Shown here one piece after another: positions 40,504 through 49,806 of a DNA stretch of 64,000 bases. Position 1 is the first letter of the stretch; the number at the start of each line of letters is the position of its first letter. Under the pieces are notes generated by a model. It saw only the letters and a list, made by a program, of their open reading frames with translations. It searched no databases and was not told where the DNA came from. Position numbers and translations under genes: made by a program. Source of the stretch: Ignavibacteria bacterium (GTDB taxonomy: Bacteria > Bacteroidota > Ignavibacteria > Ch128b); the NCBI GenBank assembly GCA_013177855.1, contig JABLYA010000001.1:1839573-1903572 (forward strand), in the 5' to 3' direction.

Positions 40504-41490
40504 TCAAATTACTCTACAACCAAGATAATCTTCACAAATTTTTTGCATTGCTATTCTAGTTGAGTTAAACGCCCAGTTGATTGAGCCACCTTTTAATCCT
40601 GCAGAAAGGTCACCAACCAGAAATAGTCCTGGAATGTTTGTTTCAAAATTATCTTTGAGAACAGGTTGTTCGCCATTAAATTCAATTCCAATTGCTTTAA
40701 GAAAGTTTTTGGGTGTTGTTCCGCCGAGTGCGTAAATAATATAATCAAAGATCATTGGAGGGTAATTGGCTTCTTTGAAGTATACTTCAGGTTTTCCGTT
40801 ATTGTCTCTAACTTCAATGATATTCGATTCTCTTAAAATTTTGAGTTTGTTTAGTTTTTCAAGAGCCAAAATACTTTCTCGGTTTATGTCATTCATTCTT
40901 GTAAAATCTTTTCTTCGATAGCTCAAAGTAACTTCGTTGTCGTTCTGAACAAGGTATTGGCAATATTCGGAAGCTGAATCACCACCACCGACTACAAGAA
41001 CTTTTGAATTCCGAATTTCTTTTTCAGTTACATCGAAGAAAATTTTATCTTTTAATGAGGCAGGTAATTTATAATCTGGTTTATTTGGTTTGCTGAGAAT
41101 TCCAATCGCAACTACAACAATTCTGGAATTATATTTAGCTTTCTCAGTAAAAACAGTAAATGTATCATTTTCATTCTTTTCAATCCGATAGACAGCTTCA
41201 TTATAATGAACTTGAAGATCATTATCTCGAATTGCTTTATCCAGATATGTTAAAGTTTCTTCTTTAGTTGAATCTGAGAGACACATAACGCCGAGACATT
41301 TCGCTTCCAATCCTTTGTAATTTGCACTTACAGGTTTTGAATCAGGATAAAATTTTTTGATGGTAAAAGAATGCACTTCCGCTTTTTCAAGTATTAAAAT
41401 TTTATCTACTGGAACTCCTGCATGTTTGGCTTCAACCGCCATACTAATTCCCGCAGGTCCTGCACCTATGATTATTATGTCGTAGCTCAT
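40504..41490 (-). CDS. thioredoxin-reductase-like flavoprotein without redox cysteines
   Basis: This 328-residue protein has two dinucleotide folds, an FAD site IIGAGPAGISMAVEA (about 7-21) and an NAD(P) site VVGGGDSASEY (about 166-176), and closes with the FAD segment GLFLVGDLSAG. The layout is that of thioredoxin reductase or YpdA-type proteins, but the CxxC dithiol is missing, so it should not reduce thioredoxin. Its central part is clearly related to the flavin domain of the iron-sulfur protein at 46945 (shared LVVGGGDSA and NxVTLSYR). It is the last gene of the cytochrome operon, 11 nt after the beta-barrel gene. A role as NAD(P)H-linked electron donor or acceptor for the conduit is inference. 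Confidence 0.85.
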   Translation of the reverse strand: MSYDIIIIGAGPAGISMAVEAKHAGVPVDKILILEKAEVHSFTIKKFYPDSKPVSANYKGLEAKCLGVMCLSDSTKEETLTYLDKAIRDNDLQVHYNEAVYRIEKNENDTFTVFTEKAKYNSRIVVVAIGILSKPNKPDYKLPASLKDKIFFDVTEKEIRNSKVLVVGGGDSASEYCQYLVQNDNEVTLSYRRKDFTRMNDINRESILALEKLNKLKILRESNIIEVRDNNGKPEVYFKEANYPPMIFDYIIYALGGTTPKNFLKAIGIEFNGEQPVLKDNFETNIPGLFLVGDLSAGLKGGSINWAFNSTRIAMQKICEDYLGCRVI

Positions 41491-41501
41491 AATGTAAACC
41501 T

Positions 41502-43061
41502 TTAAAATCTGTTAGTTATATCAAACATTAAAAATTTAGATTTTTCATTATTTAGTTTTTGCTCAATTGTGAGTGAGAGAGATAAATTTCTAAAAATGTT
41601 TGCGTATAAACCCAGTTCTAAAAAACGATCTGTGAATAATCTTTGGGTGATATTTTGTCGAAACTCATAAAGTCGAAAATTTAGATTTACCATAAGATCA
41701 TTAAAAATATTTTTAGAAAAATAACTTGAATAATTTGTACCTGTAACGAAAGGTGTTTGAATTCTATTAAAACCAAAACTTATGGAAGAATAAATTATAG
41801 GTAAATAATTAAATCCAATTGTACTTCCGTAATTATTAGATGCTTTTTGGTCACGAGATGTTTCTCTTGTTCCAAAGTGGAAGTTGACGAAAAATAAATT
41901 AAATGGTCTGATAAAAGCGGACAATCTAAGACCATGTCTGAGGACATTTTCAAAAAGTGTATCTATTGAATTTTTGAAACTCTCGAGATAATAAATGTTT
42001 TTCCTTGAATCATAGCTTATATTAAAGTTGATTTGTCGGATTGGTCTAATTGTAAGAAGAGCATTGATTGATGTTAAATTAAATTTTTTTGAAATCATCC
42101 CTTTATTTACAAGAAAGAAATCGAATTCAGTTGAAAAGAAGAAATATGTATTAGGTAATAAATCATTTCGATGCTGGAAATAGATAAATCGCCTATCGGA
42201 TTTTAAATGATTCGTCTGTTCAATGAACGCAATTGAATTATCAATGGTTCTGGTGCCAAATGAATCAACCCTTGAAAAGAATAATCCACCCTGAAAGAGG
42301 TTAATATTAAACCAATAAGAAAAATAATCTGGTCTTGAGCCAAGGAATAATCCAGCCCTATTCTGATTAAATTTATAAGAGTACTGAATTCCATCAATCG
42401 AGCCGAGACTTATTATATTAGGATTTATACTTCTGCCAAATATTAAGTTATGATTTTCCCTAAAAGTATAATCAAATGAAAGTTCATAAATCTTGAGAAA
42501 GTTTTTAACATCCCTACTATTTAAAGTATTTGAACCTCTATTTGTTGTTACTATAAAATAGGAATTGAAATTTAGATTATTCGTAAAAATGTTTTCTACT
42601 GAAGAGTTAAGACTATAACGCAATCTGTTGGTAGAATTATAATTATTCAGATCACCATAACTCTGAATTGACATTCTAAGATTATAATTTTTGGTTGATT
42701 TCAACTTATTGTCTGTTGTCAAAATCCCGACGCTATCTATGCCAAAGTTCGATGTTGTATCAATCTTCTCAATATTTTCAAGCTGAACTGGTAAATTAAT
42801 GAAAGCAAAGATAGTATCACCAATCTGAAGGTTATTAAGGGGTTTAGCTGCAATTGATGTAGAAGACTTGAATTTAACAATTGCTGCAATTGAACCTTTT
42901 AAATCATAAAGTGTATCGTCTATATATATTCCTTCGGTAGTACTAAATTTAATGTATTCAAATTGAGAAGATTTAAAAGTGATCACACCAAAAATTTTGC
43001 TTTTATCTTGAGCATCTAAGACAACGCATATCAAAAAAATCAAAATGATAAATTTTTTCAT
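41502..43061 (-). CDS. outer-membrane beta-barrel, probable porin partner of multihaem cytochromes
   Basis: This 519-residue protein starts with a signal peptide (MKKFIILIFLICVVLDAQ) at the ATG at 43061, which follows an AAGGA ribosome site. A short soluble N-terminal part (about 20-100) precedes about 370 residues of alternating polar and aromatic strands such as NLRMSIQSYGDLN, FNSYFIVTTNR and LTIRPIRQINFNISYDSR, ending in a terminal Phe (FDITNRF) as in outer-membrane barrels. The strand count suggests a large barrel (roughly 16-22 strands). It begins one base after the stop of the 30-haem cytochrome gene. By analogy with MtrB and PCC porins it could sheath a cytochrome across the outer membrane; no sequence proof is possible here. 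Confidence 0.75.
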   Translation of the reverse strand: MKKFIILIFLICVVLDAQDKSKIFGVITFKSSQFEYIKFSTTEGIYIDDTLYDLKGSIAAIVKFKSSTSIAAKPLNNLQIGDTIFAFINLPVQLENIEKIDTTSNFGIDSVGILTTDNKLKSTKNYNLRMSIQSYGDLNNYNSTNRLRYSLNSSVENIFTNNLNFNSYFIVTTNRGSNTLNSRDVKNFLKIYELSFDYTFRENHNLIFGRSINPNIISLGSIDGIQYSYKFNQNRAGLFLGSRPDYFSYWFNINLFQGGLFFSRVDSFGTRTIDNSIAFIEQTNHLKSDRRFIYFQHRNDLLPNTYFFFSTEFDFFLVNKGMISKKFNLTSINALLTIRPIRQINFNISYDSRKNIYYLESFKNSIDTLFENVLRHGLRLSAFIRPFNLFFVNFHFGTRETSRDQKASNNYGSTIGFNYLPIIYSSISFGFNRIQTPFVTGTNYSSYFSKNIFNDLMVNLNFRLYEFRQNITQRLFTDRFLELGLYANIFRNLSLSLTIEQKLNNEKSKFLMFDITNRF

Positions 43062-43062
43062 T

Positions 43063-45423
43063 TTAATTCCTTCTAAAGTTATCAATATGCATCAAATTAT
43101 CACCATTAGGATGGCAGTTATAGCAAGCCTGAGAGTTGTAGACATAACCATTCACATTTCGATGTTTTTGATCCATCGTTGTTTTGTTGTGTTCGTGACA
43201 GGTAATGCAAGAGAATACAGCGAAATTACTTGGATTAGTATGACAGATGGAGCAATTAGCCCATTTGTTTTTGTGTTTACCCGAGAAGATAGGGAAATAT
43301 TGTTGATCGTGATTGAAAGTAGAAGGGCTCCAACCATTTGTAGTATGACACATATCACATTGATGCGGGAATTGTAAACTCACATGATTGGGATTAGTAG
43401 TTCCATTAAAATCATTCATATGACATCCCTGACACTGGTTGGGAGTATTATTGTAATTTCCATTATGGCAGGAATTACAATTATTTCTTATTGAATTATG
43501 TTGACCTGTCAGAGGATAAAAATTATCGTGAATTGGGAATAGAGCTGGTTTCCAGTTTGGATTTGTTGTGTGACAATTTTCGCAGGTTGTTGGAAGATTA
43601 AGAGCAGTATGACTTGGATTTGTAGTTTGATTAAATTGATTTTGATGACAGCTGAAGCATTGAGTAGGAGTTCCAGTAGTTTGACCTTGATGACAATTTG
43701 AACAATTGGTTGAAGTGTGAGCACCAGTCAATGGGAAATTTGTATTAGAATGATTAAATGTAGAAGGTGTCCAGGCATTGGTATTATGGCAATTATTACA
43801 TTGAGTATTTAATCCAATTTGTTGATGATTAGGATTTTGAGTTTGATTGAAGTCATCGATATGACAGGCCTGACATTCGGTTGGAGTATTATTAAAACCA
43901 TTCTGATGACAGCTATTGCAACTTAAATTAGTATGAGCACCAGTCAATGGAAATTGAGTATTGTTGTGGTCAAAACTTGCCGGCTGCCATGCTTGAGTAG
44001 AATGACATTGATCACAATTAGTCGGGAAACCGAGTTGAGAGTGGTTAGGATTTGTAGTTTGATTATAATCATCTTGATGACAGCTTAGACATTGAGTAGA
44101 AGTTCCAGTAGTTTGACCTTGATGACAATTTGAACAATTAGTTGAAGTGTGAGCACCAGTCAATGGGAAATTTGTGTTAGAATGATTAAATGTAGAAGGT
44201 GTCCAGGCATTGGTATTATGGCAATTATTACATTGAGTATTTAATCCAATTTGTTGATGATTGGGATTTTGAGTTTGATTGAAGTCATCGATATGACAGG
44301 CTTGACATTCGGTTGGAGTATTATCAAAACCATTCTGATGACAGCTATTGCAACTTAAATTAGTATGAGCACCAGTCAATGGGAAATTGGTCATATCGTG
44401 ATTAAAAGCTCCATCTTCACTACCATTTGGATGGCAGTTATAGCAAGCCTGAGAATTGTAGACATAACCATTCACATTTCGATGTTTTTGATCCATCGTT
44501 GTTTTGTTGTGTTCATGACAATTTATACAAGAAAATTCTGCATAATTATTTTGATTTGAATGACAATCTGCACAAGTGTTCCATTTCCCTTTATGTTTGC
44601 CTGAATAAATTGGAAAAAATTGATTATCATGATCGAATTGAGCATCTTTCCACGAAGTTATTTTGTGACAATTTTCACAATTAGTTGAAAAACCCACTTG
44701 TTGATGATTTGGATTTTGAGTTTGCTGGTAATTATCAAGATGGCAGCTGACACATTTAGTATCTAACCCCTGAAATGTTTGTTGATTATGGCAGGTATAA
44801 CAATTTTTTATTTCATGACCACCAACAAGAGGGAAAAACGCGTGTGTAAAATTCCTTCCACCCCAGCCTTTGGATTCAAATGAATGACATTCTAAGCAAT
44901 TTGTTGAGAAATTAGCGGATATGTGATCTGGATTTTTAGCTTGTTCAAAATCTTTTCTGTGGCAGGAATAACATTCGATACTCTTTTCTTCGAAAACCAA
45001 TCTGTTTATTGATTGATGGTAGGATTGACAATTTACATTTTGGTGGATTCCTGTTAACGGGAAACGAGTTTGATTATGAATTTGTCGAATGTTTTTCACA
45101 ATCCAGGTTTCTGAAGTATGACATCGTTGGCAATCTATTCCAAAAGTGTTCTGATGTACATCGTTATGACATGCTTTGCAGTCATTCTTAGCTTCTTCAA
45201 ATTTCAAAGTTGAGTGACATTGGCGGCAATTAACCATTTTGTGCTGGCCCGTTAAACTAAAACCAGTTTGATCATGATTGAATTTCATTTCTGTAGATAG
45301 AATATTCCAAGATTGCTCTGAGTGACAATCATCGCATTGTAATTTTAAGTTACTTCCATGTGGAGAATTTTGTGCAAAACCTATTGTTAAAAATGTAATT
45401 AAGATAAGTGACAATCTGAACAT
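43063..45423 (-). CDS. 30-haem cytochrome c
   Basis: This 786-residue secreted cytochrome has a signal peptide (MFRLSLILITFLTIGFAQ) and 30 CxxCH haem-binding motifs that I counted by eye. A 31st site reads CxxYH (Tyr in place of the second Cys, codon 45019-45021). Motifs repeat roughly every 26 residues within the pattern FNHxxTxFPLTGAHxxxxCxxCH, which supplies extra His for axial ligation. It contains a 144-residue six-haem duplication and a C-terminal DQKHRN unit duplicated from the middle. A GGAGGG ribosome site precedes the ATG at 45423. It overlaps the upstream 20-haem gene by 25 nt. Probable location is the periplasm or outer surface, in a conduit with the barrel at 41502. No substrate-specific motif is visible. 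Confidence 0.93.
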   Translation of the reverse strand: MFRLSLILITFLTIGFAQNSPHGSNLKLQCDDCHSEQSWNILSTEMKFNHDQTGFSLTGQHKMVNCRQCHSTLKFEEAKNDCKACHNDVHQNTFGIDCQRCHTSETWIVKNIRQIHNQTRFPLTGIHQNVNCQSYHQSINRLVFEEKSIECYSCHRKDFEQAKNPDHISANFSTNCLECHSFESKGWGGRNFTHAFFPLVGGHEIKNCYTCHNQQTFQGLDTKCVSCHLDNYQQTQNPNHQQVGFSTNCENCHKITSWKDAQFDHDNQFFPIYSGKHKGKWNTCADCHSNQNNYAEFSCINCHEHNKTTMDQKHRNVNGYVYNSQACYNCHPNGSEDGAFNHDMTNFPLTGAHTNLSCNSCHQNGFDNTPTECQACHIDDFNQTQNPNHQQIGLNTQCNNCHNTNAWTPSTFNHSNTNFPLTGAHTSTNCSNCHQGQTTGTSTQCLSCHQDDYNQTTNPNHSQLGFPTNCDQCHSTQAWQPASFDHNNTQFPLTGAHTNLSCNSCHQNGFNNTPTECQACHIDDFNQTQNPNHQQIGLNTQCNNCHNTNAWTPSTFNHSNTNFPLTGAHTSTNCSNCHQGQTTGTPTQCFSCHQNQFNQTTNPSHTALNLPTTCENCHTTNPNWKPALFPIHDNFYPLTGQHNSIRNNCNSCHNGNYNNTPNQCQGCHMNDFNGTTNPNHVSLQFPHQCDMCHTTNGWSPSTFNHDQQYFPIFSGKHKNKWANCSICHTNPSNFAVFSCITCHEHNKTTMDQKHRNVNGYVYNSQACYNCHPNGDNLMHIDNFRRN
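43111..43200. repeat. 90-bp direct repeat, copy A (end of the 30-haem gene)
   Basis: This 90-bp stretch matches 44431-44520 with two substitutions, 1,320 bp (440 codons) apart and in the same frame. It encodes EHNKTTMDQKHRNVNGYVYN and then the last CYNCH site, so the C-terminus copies an internal module. Confidence 0.9.
43664..43950. repeat. 432-bp-spaced internal repeat, copy A
   Basis: These 287 bp align with 44096-44382 without gaps and I count six differences, all transitions (about 98% identity). The offset of 432 bp equals 144 codons and spans six haem motifs. Only two differences change the protein (Pro/Ser and Asn/Asp). Confidence 0.93.
44096..44382. repeat. 432-bp-spaced internal repeat, copy B
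   Basis: This is the partner of the repeat at 43664-43950. The intervening 145 bp are only moderately similar to the matching part of the neighbouring period, so the identity stops sharply, as expected after unequal crossing-over or gene conversion. Confidence 0.93.
44431..44520. repeat. 90-bp direct repeat, copy B (middle of the 30-haem gene)
   Basis: This is the partner of 43111-43200. It encodes the internal copy of the DQKHRN/CYNCH module. Confidence 0.9.
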
Positions 45424-46967
45424 CTTACCCTCCTTATTTTGAATAAAATGAAATTGTCACCATTATCCATCTCGACCTTTGGATGACATTTGATGCATTC
45501 TACCCTTTCGTGTGCCCCAGTAAGTTTAAAAGCAGTTTCATTATGGTTAAATAATCCTGGTTTCCAATTATCGAACGTATGACAATTTACACACTCTCCA
45601 GATGCATATTGTTTATTATGAAAGTCTTTATGGCAATCCAAACAATCTGACTTTAAGGATTTAAATAGATGAATTTTTTTATTTTGAAATTCTTTTATGT
45701 GACAACTTCTGCAATTTGTTTGAGCATGCTTTCCTGAAAGTGTAAACTTAGTTTGATTATGATCAAACTTTATAATAGACCATAAACCAGTATTGTGACA
45801 ATTTTCGCAATTATTCTGCCCAGCAAATCGAGGAGATATTTCTTGATTATGAACATTGTTATGGCATCCGATACATTGGAATGAATTGAATTTGAATTTC
45901 CACTCATCATTTTTATAATGACAGCTTCGACATTCAATTGCAAGATGTGACCCAGTTAATACAAACTTTGTTCTCTGATGTTGTTCTAAAGTAAAATTTG
46001 ATGGCGTAAATCCATTTTCTGAATGACAATCTTCGCAATCTCTGGGAGTATTTTTAATTGCGAATTGTCCTTTATGATAATCCTGATGACAATCAAGACA
46101 TTTATTATGTTTAACTGGATCTGTTAATTTATTTTTATGGCATTCATTACATTGTACAAATTGATGCTTACCGTTTAAGGGGAAACCAGTTTTTGAGTGA
46201 TCAAATCCTTGCTTTGGAACATTTTTGAAAGAGTTGTAATTATGGCATTTCAAACAATTATTCCCAAATTTGTTTTCATGAACATCTGTATGGCAATCAA
46301 TACATTCAACTTTAGTTTTCGAAACAAACTTTAGAATAGTTGAATTTTCAGTCACACTTTTTTTATGACAGTCTATACAATTAACCTTTTTATGAGCGCC
46401 TATTAACTGGAATGAGGTTTTTGAATGGTCGAACTGAATATTTGATGAGAAGGAGAATGTATTATGACATTTTTCGCAATTTCTCCCGGCAGTTTGTTGA
46501 TGAATATCTTGATGACAGGAAATACAGGTGTTAACTAATCCTAAGAAAGATTTTAATTTCTTCTTTAAAGATGGATCTTTTATAAATTTTTGATTGTGAC
46601 ATTCAGAACAATCAATTGATTTATGTTTCCCTGTTAATTCATATCCAGTTAGTCGATGATCAAACTTAGACTTATTGAATTGAATGATTTGAAAATTTCT
46701 GCCGTTATGTTCTGAATGGCAGGTCCAGCATTGTTTGCCTTTAACTTCTTTTGACGAATGGTAACCAGAATTTTTCTCTACCCGCGTTTTAATTTCTTTA
46801 TGGCAATCTAAACATTTTCCGTTATCTAAACCTTCACCAATGGTATGACATTTCGTGCAGTTGCTCAATCCATCAAACTTAGCATGAAAGCTGCTCAATT
46901 CACCTGGAGAAATTTGAGCAAGAAGTATTTTGTTTAACACTAAACTAATTGCGACTAACTTTTTCAT
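45399..46967 (-). CDS. 20-haem cytochrome c
   Basis: This 522-residue secreted cytochrome has a signal peptide (MKKLVAISLVLNKILLAQ) and 20 CxxCH motifs by my count. The spacing pattern (F)DHxxTxFxLxGxHxxxxCxxCH recurs throughout, as in the 30-haem neighbour, but the repeats here are diverged, so this is the older of the two in sequence terms. Pairs of motifs alternate with Lys-rich linkers, giving a basic protein unlike the Asn/Gln/Thr-rich 30-haem one. It overlaps the iron-sulfur flavoprotein gene by 23 nt upstream and the 30-haem gene by 25 nt downstream. The likely role is a periplasmic carrier between the membrane proteins and the outer-membrane unit. Confidence 0.93.
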   Translation of the reverse strand: MKKLVAISLVLNKILLAQISPGELSSFHAKFDGLSNCTKCHTIGEGLDNGKCLDCHKEIKTRVEKNSGYHSSKEVKGKQCWTCHSEHNGRNFQIIQFNKSKFDHRLTGYELTGKHKSIDCSECHNQKFIKDPSLKKKLKSFLGLVNTCISCHQDIHQQTAGRNCEKCHNTFSFSSNIQFDHSKTSFQLIGAHKKVNCIDCHKKSVTENSTILKFVSKTKVECIDCHTDVHENKFGNNCLKCHNYNSFKNVPKQGFDHSKTGFPLNGKHQFVQCNECHKNKLTDPVKHNKCLDCHQDYHKGQFAIKNTPRDCEDCHSENGFTPSNFTLEQHQRTKFVLTGSHLAIECRSCHYKNDEWKFKFNSFQCIGCHNNVHNQEISPRFAGQNNCENCHNTGLWSIIKFDHNQTKFTLSGKHAQTNCRSCHIKEFQNKKIHLFKSLKSDCLDCHKDFHNKQYASGECVNCHTFDNWKPGLFNHNETAFKLTGAHERVECIKCHPKVEMDNGDNFILFKIRRVRCSDCHLS

Positions 46968-48300
46968 TTTTGTGTGATAGAATTACTTCACCAAATTTTT
47001 TGGTTATTTTAATTCCAATTTTCTCTAGAAATTGGTTGGGCAGTTCACCACCTATAAATACATACACTAAATCATTCGGAATTTTTAAAAATTCTGAATC
47101 ATTAATTTTCAACTCAACAAAATCATCAAAAATTTCTTTAACCTGCGAATTAAAAATCACTCTAATCTTCTGTTTTGCGATTGCATCGTGAATTGCCTGA
47201 AAGTTTTTTTCTTTTAGTCTTGAAAATTTTTCACTACGATAGGATAGGGTTACATTGTTACCTTCATCGGCGAGAATTAAAGCTGATTCAATTGCTGAAT
47301 CCCCACCTCCTACTACCAGGACATTTTTATTTTTAATTAATTCAGGGTCAAGAAGTTTATAGAAAACTTTTTGTTTTTCTTCACCGGGAACATTTAGTTT
47401 TCTTGGACTGCCTCTTCTCCCAATTGCCAGTAGAACTGATGCAGAAGTATAAATTTTATTATTTGTATAGACTTTAAAAACATTATCCTCCTTTTTTATA
47501 TCTACAACTTTTTCATTTTCGTTTATCTTTATTGAGTACTTTTGAAATATATTATTCCAGAGTCTTAATAATTCATCTTTAGTTGTTTCGGTCAGTTTTA
47601 TTTTTCCATAAAGGGGTAAATTCATTGGAGAGGTCATAATTATTTTTTGTCGTGGGAAGCTATAGACAGTGCCCCCAACAGTATCCTGTTCGAGTGTTAG
47701 ATATTTTAAACCGTAACTTTTAGCAGCAAGCGTTGCCGAAATTCCTGCTGGACCTGCACCAACTATAATAACATCGTAATCTGCATTTGAATGATTACTT
47801 AATTTTTTTGAAATGTTATCAATTGCCTGTTTCCCTTGTTCGACAGCATTTTTTATTAATCCCATTCCGCCCAGTTCTCCTGCGATGAAAATCATTGGAA
47901 TGTTTGTTTCAAATTCTGGTGATATATGAGGCAGTTCAACCCCTCTTTTTTCTGTTCCCATAACAAGAGATATAGCTTCAACTGGGCAAGCATGAAAACA
48001 GGCACCGTGTCCGACGCATCTCGATGCATTTATCGTTACTCCTTTACCATTTATTAATCCAAGTATATCTTTTTCTGGGCAAGCTTCAACACAGGCTCCT
48101 GTTCCAATACAGATGTCATAATTTATGACTGGATGAAGAGATACAGGTTCAAAAGTTCCAAGTTCTTTTGCCTTTTGAATTTTAGATAAGACATTTTTGT
48201 TTGAGCGCCTGACTTTGATCAAATAAATTAGAAGAACCACTCCAACTATCAAAAAAGTGAATAAGTAAAACAATCCTTCAAGCAAATTCTCTTCTGTCAT
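46945..48300 (-). CDS. membrane-anchored ferredoxin/FAD-NAD(P) oxidoreductase
   Basis: This 451-residue protein starts with one membrane helix (about 8-27) and a basic stop-transfer stretch. Two iron-sulfur motifs follow (about 62-77 and 92-107), reading CIGTGACVEACP and CVGHGACFHACP. In both, the second Cys of the CxxCxxCxxxCP pattern is replaced, by Thr and by His. A thioredoxin-reductase-like domain fills residues 175-451, with VIIVGAGPAGISA for FAD and VLVVGGGDSAIES for NAD(P); no CxxC dithiol is seen. It overlaps the TPR gene (4 nt) and the 20-haem gene (23 nt). It may pass electrons between NAD(P)H or a quinone-linked protein and the cytochromes. The soluble part most likely faces the cytoplasm, from the basic residues following the helix. 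Confidence 0.88.
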   Translation of the reverse strand: MTEENLLEGLFYLFTFLIVGVVLLIYLIKVRRSNKNVLSKIQKAKELGTFEPVSLHPVINYDICIGTGACVEACPEKDILGLINGKGVTINASRCVGHGACFHACPVEAISLVMGTEKRGVELPHISPEFETNIPMIFIAGELGGMGLIKNAVEQGKQAIDNISKKLSNHSNADYDVIIVGAGPAGISATLAAKSYGLKYLTLEQDTVGGTVYSFPRQKIIMTSPMNLPLYGKIKLTETTKDELLRLWNNIFQKYSIKINENEKVVDIKKEDNVFKVYTNNKIYTSASVLLAIGRRGSPRKLNVPGEEKQKVFYKLLDPELIKNKNVLVVGGGDSAIESALILADEGNNVTLSYRSEKFSRLKEKNFQAIHDAIAKQKIRVIFNSQVKEIFDDFVELKINDSEFLKIPNDLVYVFIGGELPNQFLEKIGIKITKKFGEVILSHKNEKVSRN

Positions 48301-48908
48301 TTTAATATTGCTAATAATTCTTTTGCTTTTTTTGCCTCCTCAGTTTGAGGGAAGCGGTTGATTACATCATTCCAGTATTTTTTTGCTTGTTCTTTTTCTC
48401 CCATTGAGGCATTAATTGAACCAAGATTAAAAATTGCACGATATTCATCAGGTTTCTTTTTAAGAATAAGTTTTGTTATTTCTTCAGCTTTCTTATAATT
48501 TTTCAAATTATAATAAGCGACTGTCAGATTAAATAAGGATTCGATCGATAACTTGTCTCGAAATTTTTCATAAATTTCAATTGCTTTGCTGTTATCGTGA
48601 GCGGCTAAATAAAAATCGGCAAGTTCCGTTGCACTTTCAAGATTATTTGGATTTCTCTTATACTTCATTTCAAGTTCGTGAAGTTTATTGCGAAATGTTT
48701 CAGATACATTTTCGCGAGAGGGTGGTGCATTTTGAAATATATTTCTATGAATTGAATCGTCTGGCATATTTTTATGAGGATTTTCCATCCTCATTCCCGA
48801 ATTTGATATCGGTTTCTGAATTTGGTCGTTTTCTCTAACTATATAGACAACAAATAAAACAGAAATTAAAATTACCATTAAGTAAAAATATTTTATACTT
48901 ACTTTCAT
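48297..48908 (-). CDS. membrane-anchored TPR protein
   Basis: This 203-residue protein has one N-terminal membrane helix (about 7-25) and three to four TPR units in the C-terminal 120 residues (for example ATELADFYLAAHDNSKAIEIYEKF and EYRAIFNLGSINASMGEKEQAKKYW). The ATG at 48908 has a GGAG ribosome site; the longer frame from 48956 would overlap the upstream gene and has none. TPR anchors of this kind often assemble cytochrome c complexes (compare NrfG/CcmH). It lies between the b-type membrane protein (10-nt gap) and the iron-sulfur flavoprotein (4-nt overlap). Confidence 0.8.
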   Translation of the reverse strand: MKVSIKYFYLMVILISVLFVVYIVRENDQIQKPISNSGMRMENPHKNMPDDSIHRNIFQNAPPSRENVSETFRNKLHELEMKYKRNPNNLESATELADFYLAAHDNSKAIEIYEKFRDKLSIESLFNLTVAYYNLKNYKKAEEITKLILKKKPDEYRAIFNLGSINASMGEKEQAKKYWNDVINRFPQTEEAKKAKELLAILK

Positions 48909-48918
48909 TTTAGTCTCC

Positions 48919-49806
48919 TTAAAAAATCCACTTTGCTCCAAATAAAATTGCAACAATTATGTGAATGAACATCAGTATGAACATTGATAATGCAAATGGT
49001 AAATGAAAAATGTGCCAGTGTCGTAAAAGATTATCGAAGGCATTTAATAAATGTTCTTTTGTTCTTAATGCTAAAATCTGTTCGGAAATTTTTAATAGAT
49101 ATTTTTTGTCTTCAATAGGAATTCTTTGCTGATTTATATAAAACTTTAGTTCCTTTATCTTCTTTTTCCTGATGGAATTTTCTTTGAAAATTAATTTTAA
49201 AGAATCAGTTAATTTTTGTGTGGTGAATTCAGCTACATAGTTCTTATTTGATTTTTCATCTAATTCGACTAAAACATTAAGAACTTTTTCTTTTAAATCT
49301 GGTGACAGTTTATGAATTAAATCTGAAATATTATTTTCAATATCAGATTTTGAAAGATTTTCACCCTGAAGAGTTTTAGGTAACTGAACATAGATTACTC
49401 TTCCAACTATACCGCTTAAAACTACAATAACCATTGACCAGAAACCTATTGAAATAATGCCTCCAAACTTAAATGCAGTGTGAAAAAGCACAAGGATTGG
49501 TCCAACCGAGCACATAAAAATATGGAATTCGAGCCAGTGTTTCAGATATCCCAATTTGTTAATTTTTCTCCATCTTTTTCTAATCATATAGCTCAATACA
49601 CCAATTATCATCATTAAGCTTCCAATAATTCCCAAACCATGACCTAATAATCCACTGGGTTTAAGAATTTGATGTTTCGCACTAAAAACCCTCTCTTCAA
49701 TTGGTAGTTTGTAATAATCGAAACCATAGATGGACAAGAAGAAAAAACTAAATATCCCTGTAATAAAGTAAAAATATATTGTAAGTTTATGTAATGATCC
49801 CTTCAT
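48919..49806 (-). CDS. His-rich membrane protein, probable cytochrome b
   Basis: This 295-residue protein has helices at about 8-28, 55-75, 92-112, 117-140 and 268-290, with a charged helical insert between about 145 and 260. Histidines sit inside or at the ends of helices: His56, His95, His109, His263, His265, His268 and His282. Two pairs (95/109 and 268/282) are 14 residues apart, the usual spacing of bis-His haem b ligands within a helix. It is the first gene of the operon and could be the quinol-oxidising or -reducing inner-membrane unit. I do not recognise a named family, and haem b binding is inference from the His pattern. Confidence 0.72.
   Translation of the reverse strand: MKGSLHKLTIYFYFITGIFSFFFLSIYGFDYYKLPIEERVFSAKHQILKPSGLLGHGLGIIGSLMMIIGVLSYMIRKRWRKINKLGYLKHWLEFHIFMCSVGPILVLFHTAFKFGGIISIGFWSMVIVVLSGIVGRVIYVQLPKTLQGENLSKSDIENNISDLIHKLSPDLKEKVLNVLVELDEKSNKNYVAEFTTQKLTDSLKLIFKENSIRKKKIKELKFYINQQRIPIEDKKYLLKISEQILALRTKEHLLNAFDNLLRHWHIFHLPFALSMFILMFIHIIVAILFGAKWIF

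Follow-up and report, generated by a model that had tools for sequence, protein, structure and literature searches.

The 64,000-nt stretch of DNA analysed here (the window) carries a minus-strand operon whose products have 50 haem sites and probably move electrons from NADPH across both membranes and out of the cell. We think it reasonably likely that this is a trans-envelope conduit of the PCC3 type, equipped with its own NAD(P)H dehydrogenase and working with outward electron flow. In order of transcription, read from the minus strand, the window ORFs of the operon encode an inner-membrane protein (IMP), a TPR protein, an Fe-S flavoprotein (FESF), two multihaem c-type cytochromes (MHC20 and MHC30), a porin and a second flavoprotein (FLAV2). 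The genes are tightly packed: 10 nt separate those of IMP and the TPR protein, overlaps of 4, 23 and 25 nt join TPR to FESF, FESF to MHC20 and MHC20 to MHC30, and gaps of 1 nt (MHC30/porin) and 11 nt (porin/FLAV2, co-directional) complete the series. An earlier note on this DNA had put the genes on one strand and given all six spacings exactly; the interval it assigned to the seven genes (41502-49806) does hold six of them, but the seventh, FLAV2 (40504..41490), lies outside although it was counted. Family-model searches of each protein recognised domains in FESF, the TPR protein and FLAV2, and left IMP and the porin without a family.

IMP (295 aa; 48919..49806, minus strand) was characterised by motifs, transmembrane (TM) helices, alignments and charge. 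Hydropathy and an AlphaFold2 model (pLDDT 86.9) agree on five TM helices. The protein has two WX3HX13H motifs (W91-H95-H109 and W264-H268-H282) and an SGXXG motif, S131GIVG (S131-G132-x-x-G135). The two His pairs, whose spacing of 14 residues had been noticed before, are invariant in alignments of 27 and then 34 sequences that include IMP itself. Positive charge is concentrated in the TM2-TM3 loop (+6.1) and in the 120-residue TM4-TM5 loop (+6.4), and both loops are therefore placed in the cytoplasm. We propose that IMP binds two b haems, located towards opposite faces of the inner membrane; by geometry, H95 and H268 would hold the haem near the cytoplasm, H109 and H282 that near the periplasm. 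No Pfam or NCBIfam family matched IMP at a meaningful level, the ferric reductase domain (FRD, PF01794) gave no Pfam match at E ≤ 0.01, and an IMP profile found chance-level matches only among PDB sequences. Comparison of the model with solved folds likewise returned nothing significant (ABC-transporter, F-BAR and similar helices only), which is not evidence of fold novelty, so that the di-haem-b assignment rests on the conserved histidines.

FESF (451 aa; 46945..48300, minus strand) consists of a TM anchor, a two-cluster ferredoxin-like domain and a TrxR/YpdA-like FAD/NAD(P) domain, the latter two recognised by Pfam and NCBIfam models. Its single N-terminal TM helix (residues 10-28) is followed by a strong positive charge (+5.1), which places the body of the protein in the cytoplasm. 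Sequence comparison established that the FAD domain is circularly permuted, the C-terminal FAD segment standing before GxGxxG. In ordinary enzymes the segment that closes the fold corresponds to FLAV2 residues 274-297, including 'FETNIPGLFLVGD'; the FESF counterpart, 'FETNIPMIFIAGE', begins at residue 130, ahead of the domain that starts at 174. A phmmer comparison of FLAV2 with FESF accordingly aligned in two pieces that are out of order, and a profile of the FESF family mapped its positions 174-436 to 4-268 of the YpdA chain 7a7b and its positions 126-143 to 277-294. The permuted order and its G-E-x-x-G-x-x-L motif are fixed in 99 FESF homologues, in which the FAD-binding residues are invariant and the NAD(P)-binding residues nearly so. 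An Ignavibacteria-class genome (L164:1435-3915) and a Pseudoalteromonas plasmid (L200:6932-9286) each have the same permuted domain in a fusion with a membrane polyferredoxin (Fer4_5 + Fer4).

Both Fe-S motifs of FESF (residues 64-106) depart from the usual pattern at their second Cys: residue 67 is Ser or Thr in 84 of the 99 homologues and Cys in 13, and residue 98 is His in all 99. These replacements suggest an unusual Fe-S ligation and make the cluster type and potential uncertain. Tested as a thioredoxin reductase or YpdA, FESF has both domains, but their order is permuted and the CxxC pair is absent; with no CxxC dithiol seen in the sequence of the flavin domain, a role as disulphide reductase is unlikely. 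Conserved R355 and R361 suggest, by analogy with TrxR, that the substrate would be NADPH rather than NADH. We propose that FESF serves the conduit as its cytoplasmic NAD(P)H dehydrogenase, and read its permuted domain as a portable electron-input module that may serve beyond the FESF conduit.

The two cytochromes account for all the haem sites. MHC20 (522 residues; 45399..46967, minus strand) and MHC30 (786 residues; 43063..45423, minus strand) contain 20 and 30 CxxCH motifs, as counted before and recounted here, far above the means of 0.23 and 0.40 (maximum 4) among 2000 shuffled versions of these proteins. Nearly every Cys lies inside a haem motif (40 of 40 in MHC20 and 60 of 61 in MHC30), further His residues that could act as axial ligands (22 and 36) are enough for bis-His ligation, and only 26.1 and 26.2 residues are spent per haem. 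Both N-termini resemble signal peptides, and the MHC30 sequence is repetitive. Relatives of MHC20 have 20 haems in 60 of 65 cases, while the counterparts of MHC30 range from 10 to 67. We propose that MHC20 is the periplasm-spanning wire and MHC30 the cytochrome of the porin and cell surface. Against the DmsE/MtrA decahaem model TIGR03508 the two scored 38.7 and 25.7, short of its cut-off of 192.2.

The porin (41502..43061, minus strand) ends in Phe, and the earlier reading of it as a barrel is borne out by structure prediction: an AlphaFold2 model built with 17 homologues has ~22 strands over residues 126-518 (pLDDT 74.6). It matched 210 solved chains at Foldseek E ≤ 0.001, the matches listed being outer-membrane barrels, and VIA-align also listed outer-membrane barrels, with Z up to 18.5. 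Ahead of the barrel stands a small conserved beta domain (residues ~20-90), possibly a periplasmic dock for MHC20. An alignment of 19 sequences has twelve invariant positions, and the profile made from it found no meaningful match among PDB sequences. Pfam and NCBIfam gave no match to the porin, hence none to the MtrB/PioB family; with the porin and cytochromes short of the MtrB and MtrA family models, membership in the MtrCAB type was rejected.

The remaining two genes are accessory. The TPR protein (203 aa; 48297..48908, minus strand) has a single N-terminal membrane anchor, matches Pfam TPR_6 (7.8e-11) and, weakly, TPR_CcmH_CycH, and is probably periplasmic. The gene occurs in only 18 of 69 related loci and is an optional partner. 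FLAV2, a soluble TrxR/YpdA-like flavoprotein of 328 aa on the same minus strand, has the usual, unpermuted order of FAD/NAD(P)H domains. A FLAV2-like gene was found in none of the 69 loci and is present only in the cluster of the source genome; FLAV2 is a local addition, and it was rejected as a core part of the conduit. The earlier idea of flavin modules at both ends of the operon as parts of the system is therefore not supported, FESF being the one that is conserved.

IMP or a distant relative occurs in 38 of the 296 genomes of the phylum that were searched. A scan of named-species genomes with IMP gave at least 555 confirmed places, and the best 80 of these, which were kept, belong nearly all to Bacteroidota in the broad sense (Ignavibacteria, Bacteroidales, Saprospiraceae, Chlorobiota and others), with no named proteobacterium among them. 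Locus counts were taken over the 69 loci in which 9 kb or more follow IMP, and are slightly inflated by genomes present twice under different names. FESF is found in 67 of them, two or more MHCs in 65 and a recognisable porin in 59, its gene keeping a conserved place after that of the second MHC; in part of the class (e.g. L050, L058 and L063) FESF comes last, after the porin. In three loci (L039, L073 and L082) IMP and TPR genes occur, with or without FESF, and no multihaem cytochrome gene follows within the stretch covered. Another locus of the same class (L067:2-14675) combines cytochromes of 6, 3 and 10 haems with a distant IMP and a 763-aa TrxR-FHA-Fer2 fusion.

Carriage is patchy, since the relatives of the source genome that were searched within its own genus and family were without FESF. 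Cultured genera among the carriers are Labilibaculum (isolate K2S), Maribellus (M. luteus), Mangrovibacterium and Emticicia; in Emticicia oligotrophica the cluster lies on plasmid pEMTOL02, adjoining a CcsA cytochrome-maturation gene. FESF is present in four of the nine Labilibaculum-genus genomes and absent from the other five, and three loci named Labilibaculum (L088, L103 and L106) hold the full cluster. When fermenting glucose, isolates of Labilibaculum reduce Fe(III) and, in one instance, Mn(IV), and the genes behind this were said to need more detailed studies to specify (PMC5760507). The cluster is also found in a Melioribacter MAG (L085) whose isolate name (MnB_16, Mn-Melioribacter-1) points to a manganese source.

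Distant homologues of IMP occur on plasmids of Methylophaga, Salinimonas, Methylocystis, Sphingobium, Bradyrhizobium, Legionella, Roseomonas and Pontibacter (E 9e-19 for the IMP profile against the Methylophaga homologue), and they keep the two HX13H pairs. They stand downstream of a gene of the FAD/2Fe-2S reductase type, with FAD_binding_6, NAD_binding_1 and Fer2 domains in three of three tested, and most stand upstream of a cytochrome with ~7 haems. In several cases these reductase-IMP-cytochrome cassettes (L149-L156, on plasmids of Proteobacteria and Pontibacter) are situated among metal-resistance genes. The pairing of the same IMP with two unrelated NAD(P)H flavoproteins argues that IMP accepts electrons from such enzymes.

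In the mechanism that we propose, FESF, tethered at the cytoplasmic face of the inner membrane, would oxidise NADPH (or NADH) at its FAD and hand on electrons one at a time, by way of its two Fe-S clusters, to the b haem on the cytoplasmic side of IMP (H95+H268), from which each electron would cross to the periplasm-side haem (H109+H282). MHC20 would then carry electrons across the periplasm to MHC30, which, lodged in the porin barrel and facing the exterior, would reduce an extracellular acceptor; candidates are a metal oxide, a humic substance, an electrode or a partner cell. The whole would resemble an NADPH oxidase or ferric reductase whose electrons leave by a wire through the outer membrane. 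Electron export from NADPH is downhill in redox potential and follows the membrane potential; transfer inward to NADP does neither, which favours outward flow. The proposed mechanism is supported by the presence of FESF beside IMP in 67 of 69 loci together with at least two MHCs in 65, by the independent pairing of distant plasmid IMPs with an NAD(P)H reductase, and by carriage of the cluster in some genomes of Labilibaculum, a genus with metal-reducing fermenting isolates. It is weakened by the lack of FESF in five of nine genomes of that genus and in the genus and family relatives of the source that were searched.

The same genes could be linked to quinone, with IMP exchanging electrons with menaquinone, the cytochromes doing so with the exterior, and FESF being not the main donor but a secondary one, a regulator or a reductase of chaperone-like role. 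He et al. 2017 (PMC5566968) indeed proposed a quinone-active di-haem b for the IMPs of PCC3 and PCC4, and for PCC3 a quinone-linked path taken by electrons of an extracellular donor; one locus (L039) has IMP and the TPR protein without FESF, and known conduits of Gram-negative bacteria are fed by inner-membrane quinol oxidoreductases such as ImcH, CbcL and CbcBA. The near-constant company of FESF (67 of 69 loci) speaks against a quinone link, as does the unrelated NAD(P)H reductase beside the distant IMPs, which would be unexpected for a quinone-linked protein, and we regard it as rather unlikely. A conduit running inward, in which Fe(II), an electrode or a partner would supply electrons through the porin for making NAD(P)H or for respiration, has its precedent in the PCC3 of Fe(II) oxidisers, which was modelled in that direction (PMC5566968). 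We hold this to be improbable: in Sideroxydans ES-1 the expression of PCC3 genes fell on Fe(II) (PMC8788666), and carriers of the cluster include a genus with fermentative metal-reducing isolates. Reduction of NADP from donors at the level of Fe(II) would also be uphill and against the membrane potential. The metal-resistance surroundings of several plasmid IMP cassettes, and the lack of an annotated porin in the stretches of them that were read, might instead point to a periplasmic or outer-membrane reductase that detoxifies a soluble compound and has no extracellular wire, but the clusters here nearly always combine a large barrel with a second giant cytochrome, like known outer-membrane conduits, and we give this very little credence.

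If the NADPH-fed, outward reading is right, an orphan membrane protein of the PCC3 type gains a concrete and testable donor in FESF. To our knowledge, the outer-membrane conduits of Gram-negative bacteria are thought to be fed from the quinone pool; here an NAD(P)H dehydrogenase shares an operon with the conduit, across many Bacteroidota genomes. More tentatively, the operon might encode an extracellular reductase, common across Bacteroidota, that runs on NADPH and needs no quinone, and through which cells that ferment get rid of excess NAD(P)H electrons directly on metal oxides or humic matter; it would then be the missing genetic basis of 'fermentative' metal reduction in this phylum. The cluster is a candidate for the genes of Fe(III) and Mn(IV) reduction in fermenting Bacteroidetes such as Labilibaculum (PMC5760507).

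Among known systems the closest is PCC3, known from Alpha-, Beta- and Gammaproteobacteria (e.g. Slit_0867-0870) as a set of four genes for a porin, two MHCs and an IMP (He et al. 2017, PMC5566968) and also covered in a survey of Gallionellaceae (PMC10734462). Its extracellular and periplasmic MHCs have median haem numbers of 34 and 21, and its IMP has ~300 aa, five TM helices, WX3HX13H on TM3 and TM5 and SGXXG on TM4, a His pattern that was likened to that of ferric reductase and NADPH oxidase (PMC5566968). The operon has a gene for a ~22-strand barrel 1 nt after MHC30, two large MHCs of 20 and 30 haems at ~26 residues per haem, MHC30 being repetitive, and an IMP of 295 aa with five TM helices and the motifs at 91, 264 and 131; it thus has every PCC3 feature that we tested, a likeness judged by the features described for PCC3. 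Unlike PCC3, for which no flavin/Fe-S dehydrogenase or TPR gene is described, the Bacteroidota clusters nearly always include FESF, and their inner MHC has almost always exactly 20 haems. No open-access paper that we found brought 'PCC3' together with Ignavibacteria or Bacteroidota, or described an Fe-S flavoprotein as part of such a cluster; unnamed novel PCCs were noted in humic-bog Bacteroidetes (He et al. 2019, PMC6344600).

PCC4 (He et al. 2017) shares a porin, MHCs, an IMP with the same His and SGXXG motifs and other Fe-S redox proteins, but has three small periplasmic MHCs (4, 5 and 10 haems) and no extracellular one. MtrCAB and MtoAB also join a barrel to periplasmic and surface cytochromes across the outer membrane, with a CymA-type quinol link where the operon has IMP and FESF. 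NADPH oxidases and ferric reductases of the FRD type resemble it in two HX13H pairs for two haems and in cytoplasmic FAD/NADPH input, whereas the operon has no FRD match, a separate dehydrogenase of permuted TrxR-like build and an exit wired through cytochromes. The plasmid cassettes (Methylophaga pinxianii, Salinimonas, the Legionella 'iron reductase') likewise place a homologous IMP next to a cytoplasmic NAD(P)H flavoprotein, most with a multihaem cytochrome c on its other side, but with an FNR-type FAD and 2Fe-2S reductase in the place of FESF, and with the fewer haems and the different surroundings given above. The earlier claim of a related outer-membrane conduit that brings its own His-rich, di-haem-b-type inner-membrane protein and a dedicated flavin/Fe-S protein is therefore supported; its composition does differ from MtrCAB, the OmcB-type PCC and Cbc, but is not unlike everything described, given PCC3. 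The outer part of the operon is of this known kind, and the built-in FESF is apparently an undescribed addition that is widely shared in Bacteroidota.
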